From: Bacteroidota bacterium | Lineage (GTDB): Bacteria > Bacteroidota > Bacteroidia > Sphingobacteriales > Sphingobacteriaceae | DNA: 60,544 nucleotides | Direction of reading: 5' to 3' | Assembly: GCA_013286565.1 (NCBI GenBank) | Contig: JABDFM010000012.1 | Coordinates: 1 to 60,544, forward strand | Shown here: positions 11,722 through 60,544 of the stretch, piece after piece | Layout: every line of letters starts with the position of its first letter | Position numbering within the stretch: the stretch's first letter is position 1 | Translations under genes and position numbers: made by a program | Notes under the pieces: generated by a model | The model's input: only the letters and a program-made list of their open reading frames with translations | Databases searched by the model: none | What the model was told of the DNA's origin: nothing

Positions 11722-12513
11722 ATGAATAATACGCGCCAGCTTCGTACCGTAAATGTGATCCGCTATGTAACACCATTGCGCGAGGGCGGCTCACTGCCTG
11801 CTATTGCCGGGGCGGATGACGACTTTTTATATGTGATCAAATTTCGCGGAGCGGGACAGGGCGTTAAGGCGCTGATAGCAGAGCTGATTGGTGGCGAGAT
11901 AGCCAGGACATTGGGACTAAAAATACCCGAGATCGTATTTGCCAATTTGGATACCGCATTTGGCCGTACGGAACCCGATGAGGAAATACAGGACCTGTTA
12001 AAAGCAAGTGTAGGGCTTAATTTAGGGCTGCATTATCTTTCGGGCGCTATCACTTTTGACCAGTCGGTTACGCCTGTCGACCCAAAATTGGCCTCGCGAA
12101 TCGTTTGGCTCGATTGCCTGCTGACAAATGTTGACCGCACGCCGCGTAATACCAATATGCTCACCTGGAACAAAGAATTATGGCTAATTGACCATGGCGC
12201 GGCATTATATTTTCATCATAGTTGGGACAATTGGGAAGAACAGGCTAAAAGGCCATTTGTACAGGTAAAAGATCATGTATTATTATCAAAGGCATCTGAG
12301 TTGGATGAGGTTGATGCAGAGTTCAGGTCGATATTAAGTTCTGATTGTATCCGTTCCATTGTTTCGGTGATACCTGATGAATGGATCAGCGGCGAGTGGC
12401 ATGATTCGCCCGACCTTGTACGCGAGATATACGCGCAATTTTTAGAGACGAGGTTAAGCAATTCGCATATTTTTGTAAAAGAAGCACAAGATGCAAGAGA
12501 AGCACTTATTTGA
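11722..12513 (+). CDS. HipA-like kinase family protein
   Basis: Stand-alone kinase-fold protein of 263 residues related to the HipA Ser/Thr kinase but lacking HipA's N-terminal subdomain. Visible kinase elements are a phosphate-binding Lys strand (LYVIKFRGAGQG, residues 36-47), LDCLLTNVDRTPRNTNML, which carries the catalytic D and metal-binding N of HipA-type loops (about 135-150), and LIDHGAALYF, the DFG-like metal site (about 157-166). Substrate unknown. It overlaps the DUF3037 gene by 23 bases, so the two are almost certainly co-translated. No HTH antitoxin (HipB) is adjacent, which argues against a classical hipBA module. Confidence 0.8.
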   Translation: MNNTRQLRTVNVIRYVTPLREGGSLPAIAGADDDFLYVIKFRGAGQGVKALIAELIGGEIARTLGLKIPEIVFANLDTAFGRTEPDEEIQDLLKASVGLNLGLHYLSGAITFDQSVTPVDPKLASRIVWLDCLLTNVDRTPRNTNMLTWNKELWLIDHGAALYFHHSWDNWEEQAKRPFVQVKDHVLLSKASELDEVDAEFRSILSSDCIRSIVSVIPDEWISGEWHDSPDLVREIYAQFLETRLSNSHIFVKEAQDAREALI

Positions 12514-53374: not shown

Positions 53375-54511
53375 ATGATGATATTTTTTTACTGCAGTTT
53401 AGCCATAAGCATAATTACCATAGCGCTTACTATTTACCTGTTCCTCGGTTTTAAAAAAATTAAGCAGTTAAGCGCGCAACCCATCATTGAAATTCAGCCA
53501 TCTGTCGCCATTATTATTGCAGTGCGGAATGAAGAGGAGGAACTTGCAAAAGCTTTACAAAGCGTTTGCAATATTAAGTATAGTAATTGCCGGATCATTG
53601 TAGTGAACGACCGATCCACCGACCGTACCGCAGAAATTTTGCTGGATTTTAAGGCTCATTACCCTAATCTTATGGTTACAACCATTACTACGCTGCCTGA
53701 TGGCTGGCTTGGTAAAAACAACGCCTTGTACCAGGGATATACCAGCAGCGCAGAAGAATGGCTGCTTTTTACCGATGCAGATGTCCTGTTTCACCTGGAT
53801 ACTTTGAGCAAGGCTTTGGCATATTCAGTTGCCAACGAATTGGATCATTTAACGGTATTGCCCCGCGTCATATCACCATCACCTATTTTAAACAGCGTGC
53901 TGGCAACCTTTACTATTATGCTGATGCTGCACCTGCGGCCATGGGATGCCAAAAATCCCAGGTCAAAAGCATATGTGGGTATTGGTGCATTTAACCTGGT
54001 AAGGCGTGCGGCTTATGAAAAAGCAGGCACACATGTCCGTATCAAATTAAGGCCTGATGATGACCTGCAACTGGGTTTCAAAATCAAAACGACAGGCTTA
54101 CGCCAGGATGTGTTAGTAGGCAATGAATACGTGAGTCTGGCTTGGTACAAAAATCTACGACAGTTTATGGATGGCTTATTAAAAAACTCATTTGCAGTGG
54201 CTAATTATAGTACCATTAGGGCCATTGCAAACATCATACTGATATTGATAGTCGTGGCATTACCTATGCCGGTGATGCTAATTTTCGGCTCAACCGCTAT
54301 CCGTTTAATGGCCTGTGCCATGCTTCTTGCCCATGTGGTTTATATGACGGTTATACCGCCCTATAAATGGTGGTATGCTTTTATGATCCCTTTTGCCGGT
54401 TTTGTTATGGCTTATACCACCTTAAGGGCTACATGGATCACCCTAAAGCAAGGCGGTATTTACTGGCGCGACAGTTTCTATTCTTTAGCGATGCTGAAAG
54501 GGAAGGATTGA
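53375..54511 (+). CDS. Membrane glycosyltransferase family 2
   Basis: 378-residue inner-membrane enzyme. One N-terminal helix (about 4-24), then the GT-A domain: VAIIIAVRNEEEELAKALQS, VVNDRSTDRTAEIL, DGWLGKNNALYQGY, LFTDADVLF (DxD-type) and RPDDDLQLGFKIK. Three C-terminal helices follow (about 285-355). The GWLGKNNAL and DADV text resembles the transferases of carotenoid or hopanoid loci, but no such genes are near, so acceptor and donor are unknown. ATG at 53375 is chosen (MMIFFYC opening the helix). Confidence 0.87.
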   Translation: MMIFFYCSLAISIITIALTIYLFLGFKKIKQLSAQPIIEIQPSVAIIIAVRNEEEELAKALQSVCNIKYSNCRIIVVNDRSTDRTAEILLDFKAHYPNLMVTTITTLPDGWLGKNNALYQGYTSSAEEWLLFTDADVLFHLDTLSKALAYSVANELDHLTVLPRVISPSPILNSVLATFTIMLMLHLRPWDAKNPRSKAYVGIGAFNLVRRAAYEKAGTHVRIKLRPDDDLQLGFKIKTTGLRQDVLVGNEYVSLAWYKNLRQFMDGLLKNSFAVANYSTIRAIANIILILIVVALPMPVMLIFGSTAIRLMACAMLLAHVVYMTVIPPYKWWYAFMIPFAGFVMAYTTLRATWITLKQGGIYWRDSFYSLAMLKGKD

Positions 54512-54577
54512 ATTTAGGAGGCATGACAGTTCATTATAAATTTTTGGATGTCTTATATATTTTTTAATTTTATAAAA

Positions 54578-54805
54578 ATGGAAGCTAAACGGGTATTTAA
54601 TAAAAAAAATGAGCCGATAATCTTTATCATACTATGGCCTTGTATATTTTACTATTGTTATTTCCCCCATCCTTTTTTTTACGGCCAAACAACAGGGACG
54701 TCTTTTGATAAGATTTTTTTTAGCGTATTTTCTTTTATACAAATCTCCAAAAGTGTTATTACCTTGATCGAAAACTATAGTCACCCAAAAACTATTGATA
54801 AATAG
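54578..54805 (+). CDS. Hypothetical short membrane protein (doubtful)
   Basis: 75-residue frame with one or two hydrophobic segments (PIIFIILWPCIFYYCYF, about residues 14-30). It has no recognised family and no operon partner beyond the GT2 gene 66 bases upstream. Composition is AT-rich, so it may be chance. Confidence 0.35.
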   Translation: MEAKRVFNKKNEPIIFIILWPCIFYYCYFPHPFFYGQTTGTSFDKIFFSVFSFIQISKSVITLIENYSHPKTIDK

Positions 54806-54823
54806 TGACTGCTCTAATATATT

Positions 54824-56326
54824 CTACAATACAACTTCTCCCTTATCCAGCCTCAGAACCTTATCAACACTATCCGGTATCTCATGCAGATAATGCGTTA
54901 CATAGATGAGGGTAACATTACTTAATTTACAAATCGTATCGATCAGCATTTTGAAATGCTGCTGCTGGTGCAGGTCGAGGCCCTGGCAGGGTTCATCAAA
55001 AATCAATAATGCTGGGTTTTTAATGAGCGCCCTTGCCAGCAGGCACAGGCGCTGGGCGCTTGCCGGGATGTTTTTTAATAGTACCCTGGCGTACCGATCT
55101 ATCTCTAATGCCTTCATCCAGCGCAAAGCGGTAGCTGCCTTTTTAGGATCACTGGGCCGGAATAAGCCCATCGTATCATAAAAACCGGATTCTATCACTT
55201 GCAGACAGCTGTTATCCGTAGGGAAATACTGATATAATTCGGGCGATACAAAGCCGGTTTTGCTTTTGATATCCCAGATACTTTCGCCGGTACCACGTTT
55301 TCGGTCGAATAAAATAATATCGTTCGCGTAAGCTTGCGGATTATCGCCATTGATCAAACTCAATAAAGTTGATTTTCCTGCACCATTGGGGCCAAGCAGC
55401 GCCCAACGCTCGCCCTGTTTGAGTTGCCAGTTCACGTTTTTTAAGATCGCTTTATCGCCATAAGTGATGTTCACTTTAATCATTTTGACTATCCACTCAT
55501 AAATAGGGGTGTTGTGGATATTAAGTAGGGCGGTCAATTCATCTCTATCCACTTTTTCCTTATCGGTCAGGCTAAAGGCCGAAGGATCAAATTGATTTGC
55601 AGGTATTTGCTGAACTATTGCCCCTTTTTGCAAAACAGCCACATGAGTGATCGCTGCAGGGATCTCAAAAGGGGAGGTAGCCATGATGATGGTGATCCCC
55701 GACGCAATAATATCGCTGATGATCGAAGTAAATTCCGCCCTCGTCTGTATATCAAGCCCGGATAAAGGGTTGTCCAATAAAAGCAGTACCGGGTTTTTCA
55801 GCAAAGCAGCCGCTATCATCAAGCGTTTGGTTTCGCCGTTGGATAGTTTGATCAGTTGCTTGTTCCGTAAACTGTCCAGATTAAGCCTCTGCAGGGTTTT
55901 CCCCAAAGTCCAGTAAGGCGTGTCAGTTGTGAACGGTTTTATTGATAACAGGTATTCTTCAACCGTTAAAGCATCTTCGGAATCTGAAGAGTTATAACGT
56001 TGCTGATAATAAAAATCGCTGGTATTGGATAGATTGCGGAAATGGTGTTTTGATTCTACCAATCCTATCAAACGATGAAAAGTAAGGTGTGCATCATCAA
56101 CGTGGCCTTTTTGAAGAAACTCCTCGTGGAAATGATACCGGATACTGCCCGCCGATAAATGGAATTTACCTGCAATAATTTGAAGCAATGCGCTTTTACC
56201 TGAACCACTTTCACCAATCAACGCCCAGTTCTCACCTTTATCGATCTGGAAATTTAGATCATTAAAAATTGAGGTATTGCCTAATTTCAGAACCGCATTA
56301 TTGATCGACAATATAGATGTATCCAT
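54824..56326 (-). CDS. Double-ATPase ABC protein, ModF-like
   Basis: 500-residue cytosolic protein of two fused ABC ATPase domains without membrane part. Domain 1: Walker A ALIGESGSGKSALLQII, signature LSNGETKRLMIAAALL, Walker B LLLLDNPLSGLD. Domain 2: ALLGPNGAGKSTLLSLI, LLARALIKNPALLIFDEPCQGLD, with a degenerate signature (IPASAQRLCLL). ModF/PhrA proteins have this pattern; no molybdate genes are nearby, so the role is open. Domain 1 has Asn where the catalytic Glu would be (LLDNP), so domain 2 is probably the active site. The start at 56326 is chosen over one five codons upstream. Confidence 0.87.
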   Translation of the reverse strand: MDTSILSINNAVLKLGNTSIFNDLNFQIDKGENWALIGESGSGKSALLQIIAGKFHLSAGSIRYHFHEEFLQKGHVDDAHLTFHRLIGLVESKHHFRNLSNTSDFYYQQRYNSSDSEDALTVEEYLLSIKPFTTDTPYWTLGKTLQRLNLDSLRNKQLIKLSNGETKRLMIAAALLKNPVLLLLDNPLSGLDIQTRAEFTSIISDIIASGITIIMATSPFEIPAAITHVAVLQKGAIVQQIPANQFDPSAFSLTDKEKVDRDELTALLNIHNTPIYEWIVKMIKVNITYGDKAILKNVNWQLKQGERWALLGPNGAGKSTLLSLINGDNPQAYANDIILFDRKRGTGESIWDIKSKTGFVSPELYQYFPTDNSCLQVIESGFYDTMGLFRPSDPKKAATALRWMKALEIDRYARVLLKNIPASAQRLCLLARALIKNPALLIFDEPCQGLDLHQQQHFKMLIDTICKLSNVTLIYVTHYLHEIPDSVDKVLRLDKGEVVL

Positions 56327-56501
56327 AATTGGAGTGCGCATAAAGTATCGGGCCGAAAATAGAAATTCTTTATCAGAAGCATCCTGATTAAATTGTTTTC
56401 GTCACCATCGCCTGTGCTATGAAACTTTACTATTAATTTTTTGTAATAGAATAATAGCAAACCTGAATCTCAATAGATCAGGCAATCAAACCAATTAAGA
56501 A

Positions 56502-56666
56502 ATGAAAAAATTAAACTTGTTATTATTCCTGCTGACAATGGTTGCGTTAAGCGGATGCTCTGTTATTGCAGGGATATTTAAAGCTGGTGCCGTTGTTGGT
56601 GTGATCTCAGTAATTGTTGTGATCATCATCATCATTTGGCTGGTATCGCTGTTCAGGGGTAAATAA
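56502..56666 (+). CDS. Small lipoprotein/membrane peptide
   Basis: 54-residue protein. Lipobox ALSGC (Cys19), then SVIAGIFKAGAVVGVI and a second hydrophobic stretch VVIIIIIWLVSLF. It would be a lipoprotein with an additional membrane helix. Short proteins like this appear in Bacteroidota databases under the misleading name phosphatidate cytidylyltransferase, as I recall; nothing here supports an enzyme. A strong terminator follows ten bases later. Confidence 0.78.
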   Translation: MKKLNLLLFLLTMVALSGCSVIAGIFKAGAVVGVISVIVVIIIIIWLVSLFRGK

Positions 56667-56675
56667 ACAAAAAAA

Positions 56676-56704
56676 GCCCCTGGTGAAATACCGGGGGCTT
56701 TTTT
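56676..56704. terminator. Bidirectional terminator between two lipoprotein genes
   Basis: GCCCCTGGT / ACCGGGGGC (one G-T pair), 5-base loop, A6 on the left and T6 on the right. Serves the plus-strand gene at 56502 and the minus-strand gene at 56724. Confidence 0.9.
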
Positions 56705-56723
56705 GTTACACTTAAAAGAGAAA

Positions 56724-56951
56724 TTACTTTTTCTTAGTAGTATCTTTTTTAGTTGTGTCAGTGGCCATTTTCATTTTGCCAGTGTCTTTTTTCATTTTAG
56801 CTGAGTCAGCCATTTTAGTTGAGTCAGCAGCTTTAGCTGAATCAGCAGCTTTAGTTGAATCAGCAGCTGAAGTACCAGTTTTACCTTTGCAAGCAGCAGC
56901 AGAAACAGCGATAGCTAAAGCTAAGAATGCGATTTTGAATGAATTTTTCAT
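56724..56951 (-). CDS. Tandem small Lys/Asp/Thr-repeat lipoprotein A
   Basis: 75-residue lipoprotein, first of four related genes. Signal peptide MKNSFKIAFLALAIAVSAAA with lipid Cys21. The mature part is built of A-D-S-(T/A)-K units (AADSTKAADSAKAADSTKMA) and ends DTTKKDTTKKK. Strongly charged, probably unfolded. The DNA of the repeat part has an 18-bp tandem period. The gene has the shared ECF-type promoter 36 bases upstream. Function unknown; as a lipoprotein with a long charged tail it could bind peptidoglycan or polyanions, which is a guess. Confidence 0.82.
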   Translation of the reverse strand: MKNSFKIAFLALAIAVSAAACKGKTGTSAADSTKAADSAKAADSTKMADSAKMKKDTGKMKMATDTTKKDTTKKK

Positions 56952-56987
56952 TTTTAGTTTTTTAAAAAGTGATTAATAGTTTTGCCA

Positions 56988-57016
56988 TTAATACCACAAA
57001 TAACAAAAGGTAACCC
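56988..57016 (-). promoter_or_regulatory. ECF-type promoter of lipoprotein A
   Basis: On the minus strand GGGTTAC (57016-57010), 15 bases, GTATTAA (56994-56988). Same motif and spacing in front of lipoproteins B and C and of the sigma gene. Confidence 0.72.
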
Positions 57017-57047
57017 ATATTTTTTAAAAAAAATACAGGTTACCTTT
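57006..57047 (-). terminator. Hairpin after lipoprotein B, overlapping promoter A
   Basis: AAAGGTAACC / GGTTACCTTT, 10-bp perfect stem with an AT-rich inner stem (TATTTTTT / AAAAAATA). Read on the minus strand, the 3' arm is also the -35 box of the lipoprotein A promoter. Confidence 0.65.
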
Positions 57048-57109
57048 AAAAAAGTGTAAAAAACTAAAAATCAGTATAAAAACTAAAGTGAATTAGTCCC
57101 GTAACGTGA

Positions 57110-57328
57110 TTATTTCTTTTTAGTAGTGTCTTTTTTAGTTGTGTCAGTAGCAGCAACAGCTTTCTTAGAAGTGTCTTTCTTAGTTGTGTCAGCAGGAGCA
57201 GCAGCTTTAGCAGCAGAATCAGCTTTAGCAGCAGAGTCAGCAGATGAAGTAGTAGCTTTACCTTTGCAGGCAGCAGCAGAAACAGCGATAGCAAGAGCTA
57301 AGAAACCAATTTTGAATGAATTTTTCAT
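57110..57328 (-). CDS. Tandem small Lys/Asp/Thr-repeat lipoprotein B
   Basis: 72-residue paralogue of lipoprotein A. Signal peptide MKNSFKIGFLALAIAVSAAA is nearly identical to that of A, with lipid Cys21; the mature part has ADSAAKADSAAKAAAPADTT and ends ATDTTKKDTTKKK. Start at 57328 is fixed by homology and because the longer frame (to 57355) runs into the promoter. Leu-rich and Ala/Val-rich open frames over the same DNA are shadows of the repeats. Confidence 0.82.
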   Translation of the reverse strand: MKNSFKIGFLALAIAVSAAACKGKATTSSADSAAKADSAAKAAAPADTTKKDTSKKAVAATDTTKKDTTKKK

Positions 57329-57354
57329 GTTATATATTTTGTTTATGTTTTGCA

Positions 57355-57383
57355 TTAATACTGCAAATCAAAAAAGGTAACCC
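57355..57383 (-). promoter_or_regulatory. ECF-type promoter of lipoprotein B
   Basis: GGGTTAC (57383-57377), 15 bases, GTATTAA (57361-57355) on the minus strand, 26 bases before the start codon. Confidence 0.75.
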
Positions 57384-57497
57384 AACTTTTTTTAAATATT
57401 ATATAACGTCTATGTAATTAGTCGATTATAATAAACTCTACCTAAAGAAATCACACATTTTCCTGAACACTTTTAAATAATTCACAGCTTAAAAGAA

Positions 57498-57698
57498 TCA
57501 TGATTTTTTAGTCGTGTCTTTTTTACCAGTATCAACTGTTGCTTTCTTAGTGGTATCCACAATTTTCTTTGAGGTATCAATAGCAGTTTTTCCGGTATCA
57601 ATTTTTGAACCGGATGCAGCTTTATCCCCATCGCCGCAAGATGAAACTGAAATAGTAATTACCAGGGCCAATAGGCCGATTTTGAATGAATTTTTCAT
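57498..57698 (-). CDS. Tandem small Lys/Asp/Thr-repeat lipoprotein C
   Basis: 66-residue paralogue. Signal peptide MKNSFKIGLLALVITISVSS, then Cys21; mature part GDGDKAASGSKIDTGKTAID and TSKKIVDTTKKATVDTGKKD, ending TTKKS. More diverged than A and B but with the same MKNSFKI opening and D-T-(T/S/G)-K-K units. Own ECF-type promoter. Confidence 0.82.
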   Translation of the reverse strand: MKNSFKIGLLALVITISVSSCGDGDKAASGSKIDTGKTAIDTSKKIVDTTKKATVDTGKKDTTKKS

Positions 57699-57723
57699 AT
57701 TGTTTGTTGTTAAATGTTTTGCA

Positions 57724-57752
57724 TTGATACAACAAATTTTAAAAGGTAACCC
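57724..57752 (-). promoter_or_regulatory. ECF-type promoter of lipoprotein C
   Basis: GGGTTAC (57752-57746), 15 bases, GTATCAA (57730-57724) on the minus strand; one base differs from the other copies. 25 bases before the start codon. Confidence 0.72.
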
Positions 57753-57766
57753 GGTTTAAAAAACAT

Positions 57767-57797
57767 AAAAAAAGGCAACCTGATAATGGGTTACCTT
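57767..57797 (-). terminator. Terminator of lipoprotein D
   Basis: On the minus strand GGTAACC, loop CATTATCA, GGTTGCC, then seven T. It reuses the GGTAACC/GGTTACC words of the promoter boxes. Confidence 0.78.
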
Positions 57798-57820
57798 ATT
57801 GAATTACCGGGAATTAAGGG

Positions 57821-58000
57821 TTACATTTTTTTGGTTGTATCCTTTTTAGTAGTGTCTTTTTGCACAGTGTCAACCACGGTGGTTTTTGTAGAGTCGACCA
57901 CTTTTGTTGTGTCAGAAGTGCTGGTTGATTTTGCTCCTTTACAAGCTGCAAAAGATATTGCAAGCAGTGTGATCAAGCTTAATTTGATGATGTTTTTCAT
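57821..58000 (-). CDS. Small Lys/Asp/Thr-repeat lipoprotein D
   Basis: 59-residue fourth member, read directly from the sequence. Signal peptide MKNIIKLSLITLLAISFAA with lipid Cys20, then KGAKSTSTSDTTKVVDSTKT, TVVDTVQKDTTKKDTTKKM. Same C-terminal DTTKKDTTKK as A and B. It lies head-to-head with the sigma gene. Only a weak version of the promoter is seen (GTTAC at 58072-58068 without a good -10), so its control may differ. Confidence 0.78.
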   Translation of the reverse strand: MKNIIKLSLITLLAISFAACKGAKSTSTSDTTKVVDSTKTTVVDTVQKDTTKKDTTKKM

Positions 58001-58113
58001 TTTAATAGATTGGTTTTGATGAATTAGTTAATAATTGTCTTAAAATTGGCGAACGGAATGCAAGTAGGTAACTTCTATACCCTTAATTTTGTTTAGTTAT
58101 TTTTTAAATAAAT

Positions 58114-58142
58114 GGGTTACAATTTCGCATAAATGGTATTAA
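58114..58142 (+). promoter_or_regulatory. ECF-type promoter of the sigma gene (autoregulation)
   Basis: GGGTTAC (58114-58120), 15 bases, GTATTAA (58136-58142), on the plus strand and identical in both boxes to promoters A and B. Only three bases separate it from the GTG start at 58146. Confidence 0.7.
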
Positions 58143-58145
58143 GTA

Positions 58146-58715
58146 GTGAGTAAAGACCTAAAGAGTTCAACGCCAACGGATAGCGAAATTGTTTTTGGTA
58201 TCCTTAATAATTCAGAAAGTGCCATTAAACGCTTGTACGTGGCATATTTCCCGATGGTGTTGCAGCTGATCATTAATAATAATGGTACAGCAGACGACGC
58301 TAAGGATATTTACCAGGAAGCGATAATTGTTCTTTATAACAAAATAAAAAAGGGTGATTTTGAGCTGAACAGCAAACTGAAAACATTTATTTACTCAGTT
58401 TGCAGAAGATTATGGCTCAAAAGGCTGAGCCAGATGAACCGATATGGCGGCGATATCCGGGATTTCCAGGAATATTCGCCTGTTGAGGATGAAGTGGAGC
58501 AACATGCTGAAAGGGATATACAATTTAGCAAAATGCAAAGCGCCCTGCAATTGCTGGGAGAGCCCTGCAAAACTATAATTGAGGATTTTTATATCAATAA
58601 CAGATCGATGCAGGAGATCTGCGAAAATTTTGGCTATACCAACGCGGATAATGCCAAAACACAAAAATATAAATGCCTGCAACGACTGAAAAAACTATTT
58701 TTTCAGCAAAAATAG
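58146..58715 (+). CDS. ECF-family RNA polymerase sigma factor
   Basis: 189-residue sigma-70-family factor of the extracytoplasmic-function class. Region 2: SAIKRLYVAYFPMVLQLI, DDAKDIYQEAIIVLYNKI and KLKTFIYSVCRRLWLKRL. Region 4: LQLLGEPCKTIIEDFYINNR, SMQEICENFGYTNADNAKTQ and KYKCLQRLKKLF, the DNA-binding helix-turn-helix. GTG start; no other start in frame keeps region 2 intact. Twelve bases before the anti-sigma/protease gene, so one operon. Likely binds GGGTTAC-N15-GTAT(T/C)AA, found before itself and three lipoproteins. Confidence 0.92.
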   Translation: MSKDLKSSTPTDSEIVFGILNNSESAIKRLYVAYFPMVLQLIINNNGTADDAKDIYQEAIIVLYNKIKKGDFELNSKLKTFIYSVCRRLWLKRLSQMNRYGGDIRDFQEYSPVEDEVEQHAERDIQFSKMQSALQLLGEPCKTIIEDFYINNRSMQEICENFGYTNADNAKTQKYKCLQRLKKLFFQQK

Positions 58716-58727
58716 AGGAGTAAAGAC

Positions 58728-59819
58728 ATGAGAGACGAGCAACTGTTAGAAGTAATTGAACGCTACCTTAACGGCGACATGGGTGCCGATGAGCGCAGGG
58801 CTTTTGAGCAGCTTCGTATAGAAAATGCGGATATCGACAGCCGTGTGATTGAACACCAGCAGTTTACCGGCTTGCTAAAGCAATATGGCGAACGTGTGGA
58901 ACTGGAGAACAGGCTGAACGCTATTCATCACGAGATAGATGTGTATGCTTTGGTGGAAGAAGTAACAGTACACCCCGTATGGATTGTGCAGTTATGGCGC
59001 CATCATCATTCCAAAATATCGGTTGCGGCATCAATAGCAATTTTTGCTGTGTTGGCCATTTTGTTTATTTCGGGTAACCTGAATAATAATTCATCCTATA
59101 CTGAATTAAGGCGCGAGGTAGATAAGTTGCGACAGTATAATAAGAGCCACGTCACAACTACGGGTGGTGCGCAATCACTCCCCAGTAATAAGATACAAAC
59201 CGACAAATACCGTGGTACAGGTTTTGCCCTTACTTCAAATGGCTTGATCGTAACTAATTATCACGTAGTTAGCGGGGCGGATTCTGTTTATGTTCAAGAC
59301 GTTGCCGGGAGATCATTTAAGGTTAAAGTGTTATATACTGAGCCGCAAAACGATATCGCTATTTTAAAAATTACAGATACGGCATTCAAAGGTTTGGGTA
59401 CTATTCCATACACCTTCAAACGTTCTGAAAGTGATTTAGCCGAGAATGTGTTTACCTATGGTTATCCGCAGGATTCACCGGTTTATGGTGATGGCAGGTT
59501 GACATCCTCAAATGGCCTCAATGGTGATACTATTGATTACGAGATATCTGTTCCCATTAATCCTGGAAATAGTGGCGGTCCGTTACTGGATAGTAAGGGT
59601 AACATAATAGGTATTGTTAAAGCGAAAGAAACTCATCTTGAAGGCGTACATTTTGCCTTGAAATCCGGCTACCTTTTAGATGCGATACAAAATATCCCAA
59701 CTGATTCATTAACTCATAAACCTGTTCTGAATACCAAAAATACATTGGCAGGATTAAGCCGTGAGCAGCAGATCAAAAAGCTGAAGAACTATGTGTTTAT
59801 GGTAAAGGTGTATAATTGA
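58728..59819 (+). CDS. Anti-sigma-like domain fused to a membrane-anchored trypsin/HtrA-like protease
   Basis: 363-residue protein with three parts. Residues 1-90: cytosolic helical domain (LLEVIERYLNGDMGADERRA, FEQLRIENADIDSRV) like the N-terminus of Bacteroidota anti-sigma factors; no zinc motif. Residues about 98-116: one membrane helix (VAASIAIFAVLAILFISG). Residues 125-140: short coiled coil; 158-330: S1C protease domain with His179 (TNYHVV), Asp209 (NDIAIL) and Ser282 (NPGNSGGPLL), and GTGFALTSNGLIVTN as the opening. No PDZ domain is visible. The design suggests that the sigma inhibitor itself carries the periplasmic protease that would sense or relay stress; this is inference. Its stop abuts a repeat arm. 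Confidence 0.88.
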   Translation: MRDEQLLEVIERYLNGDMGADERRAFEQLRIENADIDSRVIEHQQFTGLLKQYGERVELENRLNAIHHEIDVYALVEEVTVHPVWIVQLWRHHHSKISVAASIAIFAVLAILFISGNLNNNSSYTELRREVDKLRQYNKSHVTTTGGAQSLPSNKIQTDKYRGTGFALTSNGLIVTNYHVVSGADSVYVQDVAGRSFKVKVLYTEPQNDIAILKITDTAFKGLGTIPYTFKRSESDLAENVFTYGYPQDSPVYGDGRLTSSNGLNGDTIDYEISVPINPGNSGGPLLDSKGNIIGIVKAKETHLEGVHFALKSGYLLDAIQNIPTDSLTHKPVLNTKNTLAGLSREQQIKKLKNYVFMVKVYN

Positions 59820-59955
59820 TTTGAAAATTTGAGGATGTGATAATTTGAAAATCCCCAATAATAATAGATAGATAAAGAAAATGCCCTGGTCACAGGGCAT
59901 TTTCTATTTAGCGTATATTTTCAAATCTTCAAATCAAATAATCTTCAAATCAACG
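59817..59955. repeat. GATTTGAAAATTTGA paired inverted repeat with central terminator
   Basis: Left side GATTTGAAAATTTGAGG and GTGATAATTTGAAAAT; right side ATTTTCAAATCTTCAAATCA and AATAATCTTCAAATCAAC. The arms begin at the stop codons of the two convergent genes, so the whole gap is the cassette. Confidence 0.7.
59877..59904. terminator. Terminator between the protease gene and nuoD
   Basis: GAAAATGCCCTG / CAGGGCATTTTC, perfect 12-bp stem with loop GTCA, T-rich on both strands' 3' sides. Sits in the middle of the repeat cassette. Confidence 0.88.
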
Positions 59956-60544
59956 GTCCACTTCCCCCAGCACAAAATCGATCGATCCAACAATAGCGAT
60001 CAGGTCGGCTATCATCACACCTTTGGCGATGGCTGGTAATACAGACAAGTTGGTAAAGCTTGGCCCGCGTGATTTTACCCTGAAAGGTATTTCTGACCGG
60101 CCATCAGGATCAGCTACAAAGTAAAAACCTAATTCACCCTTCGCGCCTTCGCCCCTTACATAATAGTCTTGTGCTTTTGGTGTTATTTTACGTGGTAACT
60201 TAGCCCGTGGATCAAAATCCGGGGTGCGTTTCAATTCTTTTTGCAAGCGATCAAGACATTGCTCCACTATTCTAAGTGATTGTTCTATCTCATCCACCCG
60301 AACTTTGTACCGGTCCCAGCAATCGCCTACAGTTCCCATTTCGCCCTTGCCGATTGGTATTTCAAAATCTAGTTCGGGATAAACAGAATAACCATCAATG
60401 CGCCGCAGATCCCATTTAAGGCCGGAACCGCGCAGCATAGGGCCGGAGCAGCCATAATTAATAGCCACATCCATCGGCAACACACCCACGTTAGCCGTGC
60501 GCTGTATAAATATCTGGTTATCGGTTAATAGCTGGTTCAGCTCA
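59950..60544 (-). CDS. nuoD: NADH-quinone oxidoreductase subunit D (partial, C-terminal part)
   Basis: 49-kDa subunit of respiratory complex I that helps form the quinone site. The frame is open to the right edge (ELNQLLTDNQIFIQRTANVG), so the N-terminal half lies outside. About 198 residues are visible: GVLPMDVAINYGCSGPMLRG, SGLKWDLRRIDGYSVYPELD, VGDCWDRYKVRVDEIEQSLR, and the end SRGPSFTNLSVLPAIAKGVM, IADLIAIVGSIDFVLGEVDR, all typical of NuoD. With futalosine-route menaquinone, complex I would reduce menaquinone. Its stop codon overlaps a repeat arm. Confidence 0.96.
   Translation of the reverse strand, partial: ELNQLLTDNQIFIQRTANVGVLPMDVAINYGCSGPMLRGSGLKWDLRRIDGYSVYPELDFEIPIGKGEMGTVGDCWDRYKVRVDEIEQSLRIVEQCLDRLQKELKRTPDFDPRAKLPRKITPKAQDYYVRGEGAKGELGFYFVADPDGRSEIPFRVKSRGPSFTNLSVLPAIAKGVMIADLIAIVGSIDFVLGEVDR

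Follow-up and report, generated by a model that had tools for sequence, protein, structure and literature searches.

The sigma-E/RseA/DegS system of Escherichia coli comprises an ECF sigma factor, an anti-sigma factor in the inner membrane and a periplasmic protease of the HtrA family, and it has an autoregulated promoter and envelope targets (described in part in PMC8103513). The locus analysed here appears to be alike in these respects; it differs from sigma-E in that its protease domain is carried on the chain of the probable anti-sigma factor, in which no PDZ domain was matched by Pfam at E 0.1, in its boxes (GGGTTAC and GTATTAA), in its putative core targets, which are neighbouring small lipoproteins, and in a sigma message that is probably leaderless. 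The spacing between the boxes of sigma-E promoters is similar to that of the motif found here. RsiW of Bacillus subtilis, unlike the downstream protein of this locus, is not known to have a protease domain. The SigW/RsiW complex (PDB 5wuq) holds the only solved sigma factor retrieved by sequence below E 0.001 (E 3.7e-4), and in fold the N-terminal domain of the probable anti-sigma factor is also closest to this entry, the similarity being distant.

Among the Bacteroidota, the Dma/Das (ECF21) systems of Bacteroides thetaiotaomicron, as presented in PMC13088901, include ECF factors confined to this phylum alongside unusual membrane anti-sigma factors, and das2 and its neighbours rise on loss of the anti-sigma factor. 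Dma proteins are described there as ending in a beta-barrel after a long tether; the downstream protein of the present locus has an HtrA-like protease at its C-terminal end instead, and no C-terminal beta-barrel of the Dma type was found in it. In Flavobacterium psychrophilum, the SM6 promoters have been mapped and ascribed to ECF factors, one of them preceding a sigma/anti-sigma pair (PMC9723704); as given there, they differ from the motif described here in a CGT -10 box and in type IX secretion targets. The literature search yielded no paper on the motif or on an HtrA-fused anti-sigma factor of this group, which the ECF classification may already have numbered. To our knowledge, a promoter is known for few of the ECF circuits of environmental Bacteroidota.

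The window, i.e. the whole stretch of DNA that was analysed (60,544 nucleotides), belongs to a member of the Sphingobacteriaceae described as a soil bacterium, with a Mucilaginibacter-like genome. The features of the locus are collected in Table 1. The four sites are best read as promoters of the ECF sigma factor encoded beside them, which would drive its own operon and the divergent lipoprotein genes; a probability of about 85% is assigned to this reading. An autoregulated ECF sigma factor is ordinary regulation, and the present locus is a widely conserved variant of it, made unusual by the probable fusion of anti-sigma factor and protease, the divergent lipoprotein battery and the apparently leaderless start.

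Table 1. Positions of the predicted features of the sigma/lipoprotein locus, numbered from the first letter of the window
Feature	Position	Strand	Description
Small lipoprotein A, 75 aa	56724..56951	-	lipobox-like AVSAAAC, read from sequence
Putative promoter A	56988..57016	-	-35 GGGTTAC 57010-57016; -10 GTATTAA 56988-56994; 36 nt upstream of lipoprotein A
Terminator-like hairpin after lipoprotein B	57006..57047	-	19 bp, z -5.4; listed by terminator scan
Small lipoprotein B, 72 aa	57110..57328	-	family match below cut-off
Putative promoter B	57355..57383	-	-35 GGGTTAC 57377-57383; -10 GTATTAA 57355-57361; 26 nt upstream of lipoprotein B
Small lipoprotein C, 66 aa	57498..57698	-	family match below cut-off
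Putative promoter C	57724..57752	-	-35 GGGTTAC 57746-57752; -10 GTATCAA 57724-57730; 25 nt upstream of lipoprotein C
Terminator-like hairpin after lipoprotein D	57772..57797	-	AAGGTAACC...GGTTGCCTT then T run; z -3.5
Small lipoprotein D, 59 aa	57821..58000	-	absent from the earlier note's list; without good promoter copy
Putative sigma promoter	58114..58142	+	-35 GGGTTAC 58114-58120; -10 GTATTAA 58136-58142; 3 nt from GTG at 58146
ECF sigma factor gene, 189 aa, GTG start	58146..58715	+	TIGR02937 sigma70-ECF; Pfam Sigma70_r2
Probable anti-sigma factor, 363 aa	58728..59819	+	helical N-terminal domain, hydrophobic helix, HtrA/DegS-like protease domain

A pattern scan for GGGTTAC-N15-GTATYAA returned exactly four exact matches in the window, at the very places where the earlier note had put four copies of the same architecture, and its remark that one box position varies in one copy was likewise correct, the sole variant being that of promoter C. 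When up to two mismatches were allowed, six matches were recorded in the window against a mean of 0.96 and a maximum of 4 in the shuffles; the two additional ones (at 11948 and 26591) are at chance level. A scan of the region with the sigma-70-type consensus found 7, below the 12.9 expected, and an Rfam search of 54000-60544 gave no match. The likeness to sigma-E promoters that had been claimed holds for the layout and not for the bases, as evident from TAC in place of AAC in the -35 box and from the lack of a conserved C before the GTA of the -10 box.

The sigma protein matches TIGR02937 over residues 26-183 with 68.6 bits (cut-off 42.9), and the only sigma region detected in it by Pfam is region 2. 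The hallmarks first named for ECF promoters were an AAC in the -35 element and a CGT in the -10 element, the defining features of the group having later been narrowed to the sigma2 and sigma4 domains (PMC8103513). Neither hallmark is seen here, the -35 box being GGGTTAC and the base before the GTA being variable; ECF membership nevertheless stands, because the definition was later restricted to those domains.

Eighty relative loci, those of Mucilaginibacter, Pedobacter and Desertivirga among them, were chosen by similarity to the sigma protein alone; that of the window is 95% identical to the protein of a Mucilaginibacter sp. assembly. Exact boxes are located directly upstream of the sigma gene in all 80 loci, with a spacing of 15 in 79 and of 16 in one. 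When every copy in these 780,779 bases was counted, a spacing of 15 was recorded 222 times and of 16 13 times, the rest of the range 5-25 together accounting for 3. In 130 divergent copies, the information content is 0.0-0.3 bits at spacer positions 12-15 and 19-21 and about 1 bit in a T-rich stretch, whereas the boxes are fixed, which is by construction as these copies were found by exact boxes; the sigma-locus count of 80/80 is not subject to this. In the 79 orthologous sigma copies the spacer is partly conserved too. The divergent copies continue as CCTTTT, most of the sigma copies as AATTT, and copies of either type have an A/T-rich tract in front of them. The spacers had been held to be less conserved than the boxes apart from T-rich stretches, and selection rather than duplication had been argued from this, at least for the sigma-gene copy. 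Both statements apply to the divergent copies, in which the duplication worry is answered since the spacers vary apart from the T-rich stretches; the sigma copies, on the other hand, are orthologues with a partly conserved spacer. A primary-sigma promoter of the type TAnnTTTG upstream of the sigma promoter was also considered and found unconvincing (17 of the 80 loci; shuffles mean 8.4, maximum 17).

Most of the non-sigma copies in the 80 loci precede small divergent lipoprotein genes. Among 184 lipoprotein-like ORFs of the MKN, MKS or MKT type located within 2.5 kb in the 80 loci and the window, 131 have an exact copy within 90 nt upstream and 153 have one with at most two mismatches; at the latter tolerance, the shuffled upstream regions of all 201 lipoprotein-like ORFs gave a copy in 4 of 4,020 trials. 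Lipoprotein B of the window was read from an upstream false ATG in this count and is a miss among the 201, not among the 184. The lipoprotein genes at the locus look like paralogues, and lipoprotein A has a weak match to the PG1828 family, below cut-off. Upstream of lipoprotein D the best motif match has 5 mismatches; the window copy looks decayed here, because the close relative L009 keeps a copy with two mismatches at its lipoprotein D gene. A promoter remnant can be read from the sequence at 58049-58076 (minus strand) upstream of lipoprotein D, with GTTACC kept and the -10 box gone.

The start codon of the sigma gene follows the -10 box by 2-3 nt in 66 of the 80 loci (GTG in 63, TTG in 3); ten loci have a GTG at 13-17 nt, which leaves room for a short leader, and four have no close start codon, with one at 13-17 nt. 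Within the first 15 sigma codons there is a single ATG, GTG or TTG in 74 loci, and in 75 a stop precedes any further-upstream in-frame start. As the promoter copy of the window is so close to its GTG, the simplest reading is that the sigma mRNA is probably leaderless, starting at the G of GTG. Typical ECF transcription starts lie several nucleotides further on than this. The earlier note had expected a start 5-8 nt beyond the -10 box, which would fall inside the sigma ORF in most loci; the promoter would then drive only the anti-sigma/protease, and the feedback would be negative rather than positive. The short distance to the start codon, the upstream stops and the usual position of ECF starts all favour such an arrangement, which is nevertheless unlikely: the constant 2-3 nt is most easily understood if transcription has to begin at the start codon, the loci with 13-17 nt allow a short leader, and two remote targets (L212 and L236) have their copy 4 nt from an ATG. 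Leaderless mRNAs make up 5.5% of the mRNAs of the mapped relative Flavobacterium psychrophilum, according to PMC9723704.

The distribution of the motif was examined in samples of 60 genomes (genus), 201 genomes (order) and 235 genomes (class outside the order), the second box being searched as GTATTAA. In the genus sample the motif is present in 58 of 60 genomes and the reversed control in 2. It is missing from two Mucilaginibacter genomes, both of them fragmented assemblies in which no intact close sigma orthologue is present; one (G005) has a 43-residue sigma piece and two distant paralogues, the other (G042) one distant paralogue. In the order sample, the sigma gene was found in 200 of 201 genomes, the motif in 188 and the reversed control in 11; all 13 genomes without the exact motif have a relaxed GGTTAC-N15/16-GTAT at the sigma gene, and this relaxed form is present in 31/31 divergent loci examined. 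One order genome (G148, 620 contigs) has a motif copy, the close sigma orthologue being absent from the assembly.

Outside the order, the exact motif was recorded in 13 of the 34 genomes that have a close sigma orthologue and in 3 of the 201 that do not (Fisher p 5e-10, only a guide since the genomes are related and the orthologue threshold, E <= 1e-50, was set after the list was seen). The reversed control displays no association with sigma (2/34 against 11/201, p 0.59). The copy is at the sigma locus in 9 of these 13 genomes and only elsewhere in 4; in G438, one of the three genomes with the motif and without a close orthologue, it adjoins a more distant sigma homologue. Nineteen class-level loci from 7 other families, out of the 34 genomes, were analysed. 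The relaxed motif faces sigma in 13 of them (shuffles 7/3800) and is divergent in 13 (shuffles 5/3800), with both in 10; six loci lack the copy toward sigma and six the divergent one. A divergent small lipoprotein-like ORF is present in 16 of the 19 and a downstream ORF with a protease motif in 18. The recurrence of the arrangement in class-level loci of other families suggests that the back-to-back sigma/lipoprotein module is probably older than the order, and with its presence in distant relatives it looks like an old, little-studied circuit of cell-envelope control.

These distributions also bear on the proposal that the boxes are read by another regulator, be it a different sigma factor or some transcription factor, and that the ECF gene is merely one of its targets. 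In its favour, the sigma model gave 13 first-look candidates in the own genome, of which one passed, so other ECF-like genes may exist, and G148 combines a motif copy with the lack of a close orthologue. Two 7-base boxes at a fixed spacing of 15 or 16 are, however, the layout of a promoter, the co-occurrence is with this very sigma orthologue, and the two motif-less Mucilaginibacter genomes are those whose assemblies lack the sigma gene or contain it in broken form; another regulator is thus quite improbable.

The own assembly (3.2 Mb, 131 contigs) is 72% complete, and its genome-wide counts are lower bounds. The genome scan that the earlier note had recommended, with the reversed pattern as control, gave at least 5 exact matches and none for the reversed pattern, and with one mismatch at least 8 matches against 2 control matches. 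The fifth exact match, in addition to the four of the window, is at G000:C28:31561-31589 (L005, L227), 15 nt upstream of a membrane-protein-like ORF of 109 aa. A homologue of this ORF in another genome (L222) has a motif copy of its own. At least 35 out-of-locus sites occur among the matches listed, of which 34 were taken (33 from relatives and that on C28), G063:C96:895179 being left out. Among these listed sites, 22 of 34 are 4-42 nt upstream of a same-direction ORF of at least 61 residues, and 4 are inside long ORFs and look like chance.

Remote copies precede homologous genes in different genomes, encoding DUF2459 (4) and DUF4294 (5, of which one is at a distance of 88 nt and hence not among the 22), and four further small families, mostly membrane-protein-like, also stand behind remote copies among the matches listed; the Pfam names were checked on one member each, 7 of the 22 extracted proteins having been scanned. 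DUF4294 was rejected as a general target. Its gene is present in 61/61 genomes, yet the motif is upstream with at most two mismatches in only 7/50 (shuffles 9/2500) and with at most three in 8/50, and not in the own genome; this target is therefore lineage-specific. The core regulon would then be local, with a few lineage-specific remote targets. The claim of a local regulon is borne out in that it is mainly local, and not in that it is exclusively so, given the remote copies before genes.

The proposal that these promoters are recognized by the ECF factor encoded next to them, the promoter of its own gene included, is well supported at the level of sequence comparison. The motif precedes sigma in every locus selected by protein, its spacing is nearly always 15 and sometimes 16, it co-occurs with the sigma orthologue at class level where the reversed control does not, the spacers of the divergent copies vary outside T-rich stretches, and the majority of the listed remote copies immediately precede genes, several of them homologous between genomes.

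Stem-loops overlap with some of the copies. The 3' arm of the hairpin after lipoprotein B contains the -35 box of promoter A, the -10 box being outside; a stable stem followed by a T run, as in an intrinsic terminator, is thus found at the -35 region of promoter A, and a single sequence apparently terminates one gene and initiates the next. Promoter B has no hairpin above chance (z 0.02), and neither has the sigma copy of the window. In the 80 loci and the window, a GGTAAC arm lies within 60 nt upstream of 28 of the 140 divergent copies, in many cases as part of such a hairpin, and a GGTAAC-type arm within the same distance of 13 of 81 sigma copies; the other 112 divergent and 68 sigma copies are without it. 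Promoter C is among the 28, its GGTAACC arm belonging to the hairpin after lipoprotein D. Part of the -35 conservation in arm-bearing divergent copies may be due to the hairpins. That the repeats are only by-products, i.e. terminator arms along with copies spread by duplication of lipoprotein genes, and no promoters at all, would agree with the hairpin at promoter A, the arms at a minority of copies and the paralogous look of the lipoprotein genes, but it is scarcely tenable when most copies of both types have no arm, copy B and the window sigma copy fold no better than chance, the -10 box outside the copy A hairpin is equally constant, spacers vary between constant boxes, and copies are found repeatedly in front of remote genes that are unrelated.

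In 77 of the 80 loci sigma is followed, usually within 20 nt, by an ORF of the type seen in the window; of the remaining three, two were read from a wrong codon and one locus is too short. The N-terminal 81 residues of the window protein, folded alone, gave a confident four-helix model (pLDDT 88.5), for which Pfam returned nothing significant. The first nine Foldseek matches of this domain are anti-sigma complexes (RslA, RsiW and MucA), all at E 0.9 or worse. The best Z value, 6.1 with an RsiW entry (70 aligned, rmsd 4.9), is only suggestive for a small helical bundle, an unrelated kinetochore protein reaching 5.1. A hydrophobic helix at about residues 97-116 was read from the sequence, model confidence being low there. 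It is followed by a protease domain (about 160-325), as evident from Pfam Trypsin_2 (1.1e-23), a DegP-like chain (6.7e-25) and fold matches including DegP and DegS chains; PADLOC matches of the domain look like generic trypsin-fold matches and were set aside. Residues H179, D209 and S282, which we take from the usual motifs to be the catalytic triad, are invariant in 15 aligned rows, so the triad is intact. The protein ends about 40 residues past the matched protease stretch. Gene position, layout and fold match combined point to a likely anti-sigma factor, which would carry a DegS/HtrA-like protease on the same chain; self-cleavage by the protease domain is a conjecture.

On the preferred reading, the ECF sigma factor would transcribe its own operon (sigma and the membrane anti-sigma/protease) as well as the divergent small lipoprotein genes, and sigma would be held at the inner membrane by the helices at the N-terminal end of the downstream protein. 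More speculatively, the HtrA-like domain of the same chain may sense envelope trouble and start the cleavage that frees sigma, and the freed sigma would give positive feedback and more lipoprotein. A wider interpretation, tentative and rather doubtful, is that the class has an ancient, self-contained envelope circuit, with a one-chain anti-sigma/site-1 (HtrA-type) protease, a leaderless GTG sigma message set by the promoter of sigma itself and an output made up chiefly of divergently encoded, tiny surface or periplasmic lipoproteins, which are maybe co-sensed. Promoter, sigma factor, probable anti-sigma factor with built-in protease and targets come as one package, and the presence of sigma in nearly all sampled genomes of the order makes it testable in any tractable laboratory strain. 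From the package one would gain a candidate promoter with its sigma factor, a system in which to test anti-sigma proteolysis within one chain, and a conserved instance of leaderless translation.

Two further groups of motif copies were observed. In four genomes (L208, L211, L218 and L224) a near-identical exact copy has no clear long ORF close behind it, and it possibly marks a small RNA. In 18 of the 80 loci (e.g. L015, L018, L022, L038, L063 and L079) a tandem second motif faces sigma on the plus strand about 73-198 nt upstream of it, in some cases followed by nothing more than a very short ORF; this copy may be a second sigma promoter or the start of a small RNA.
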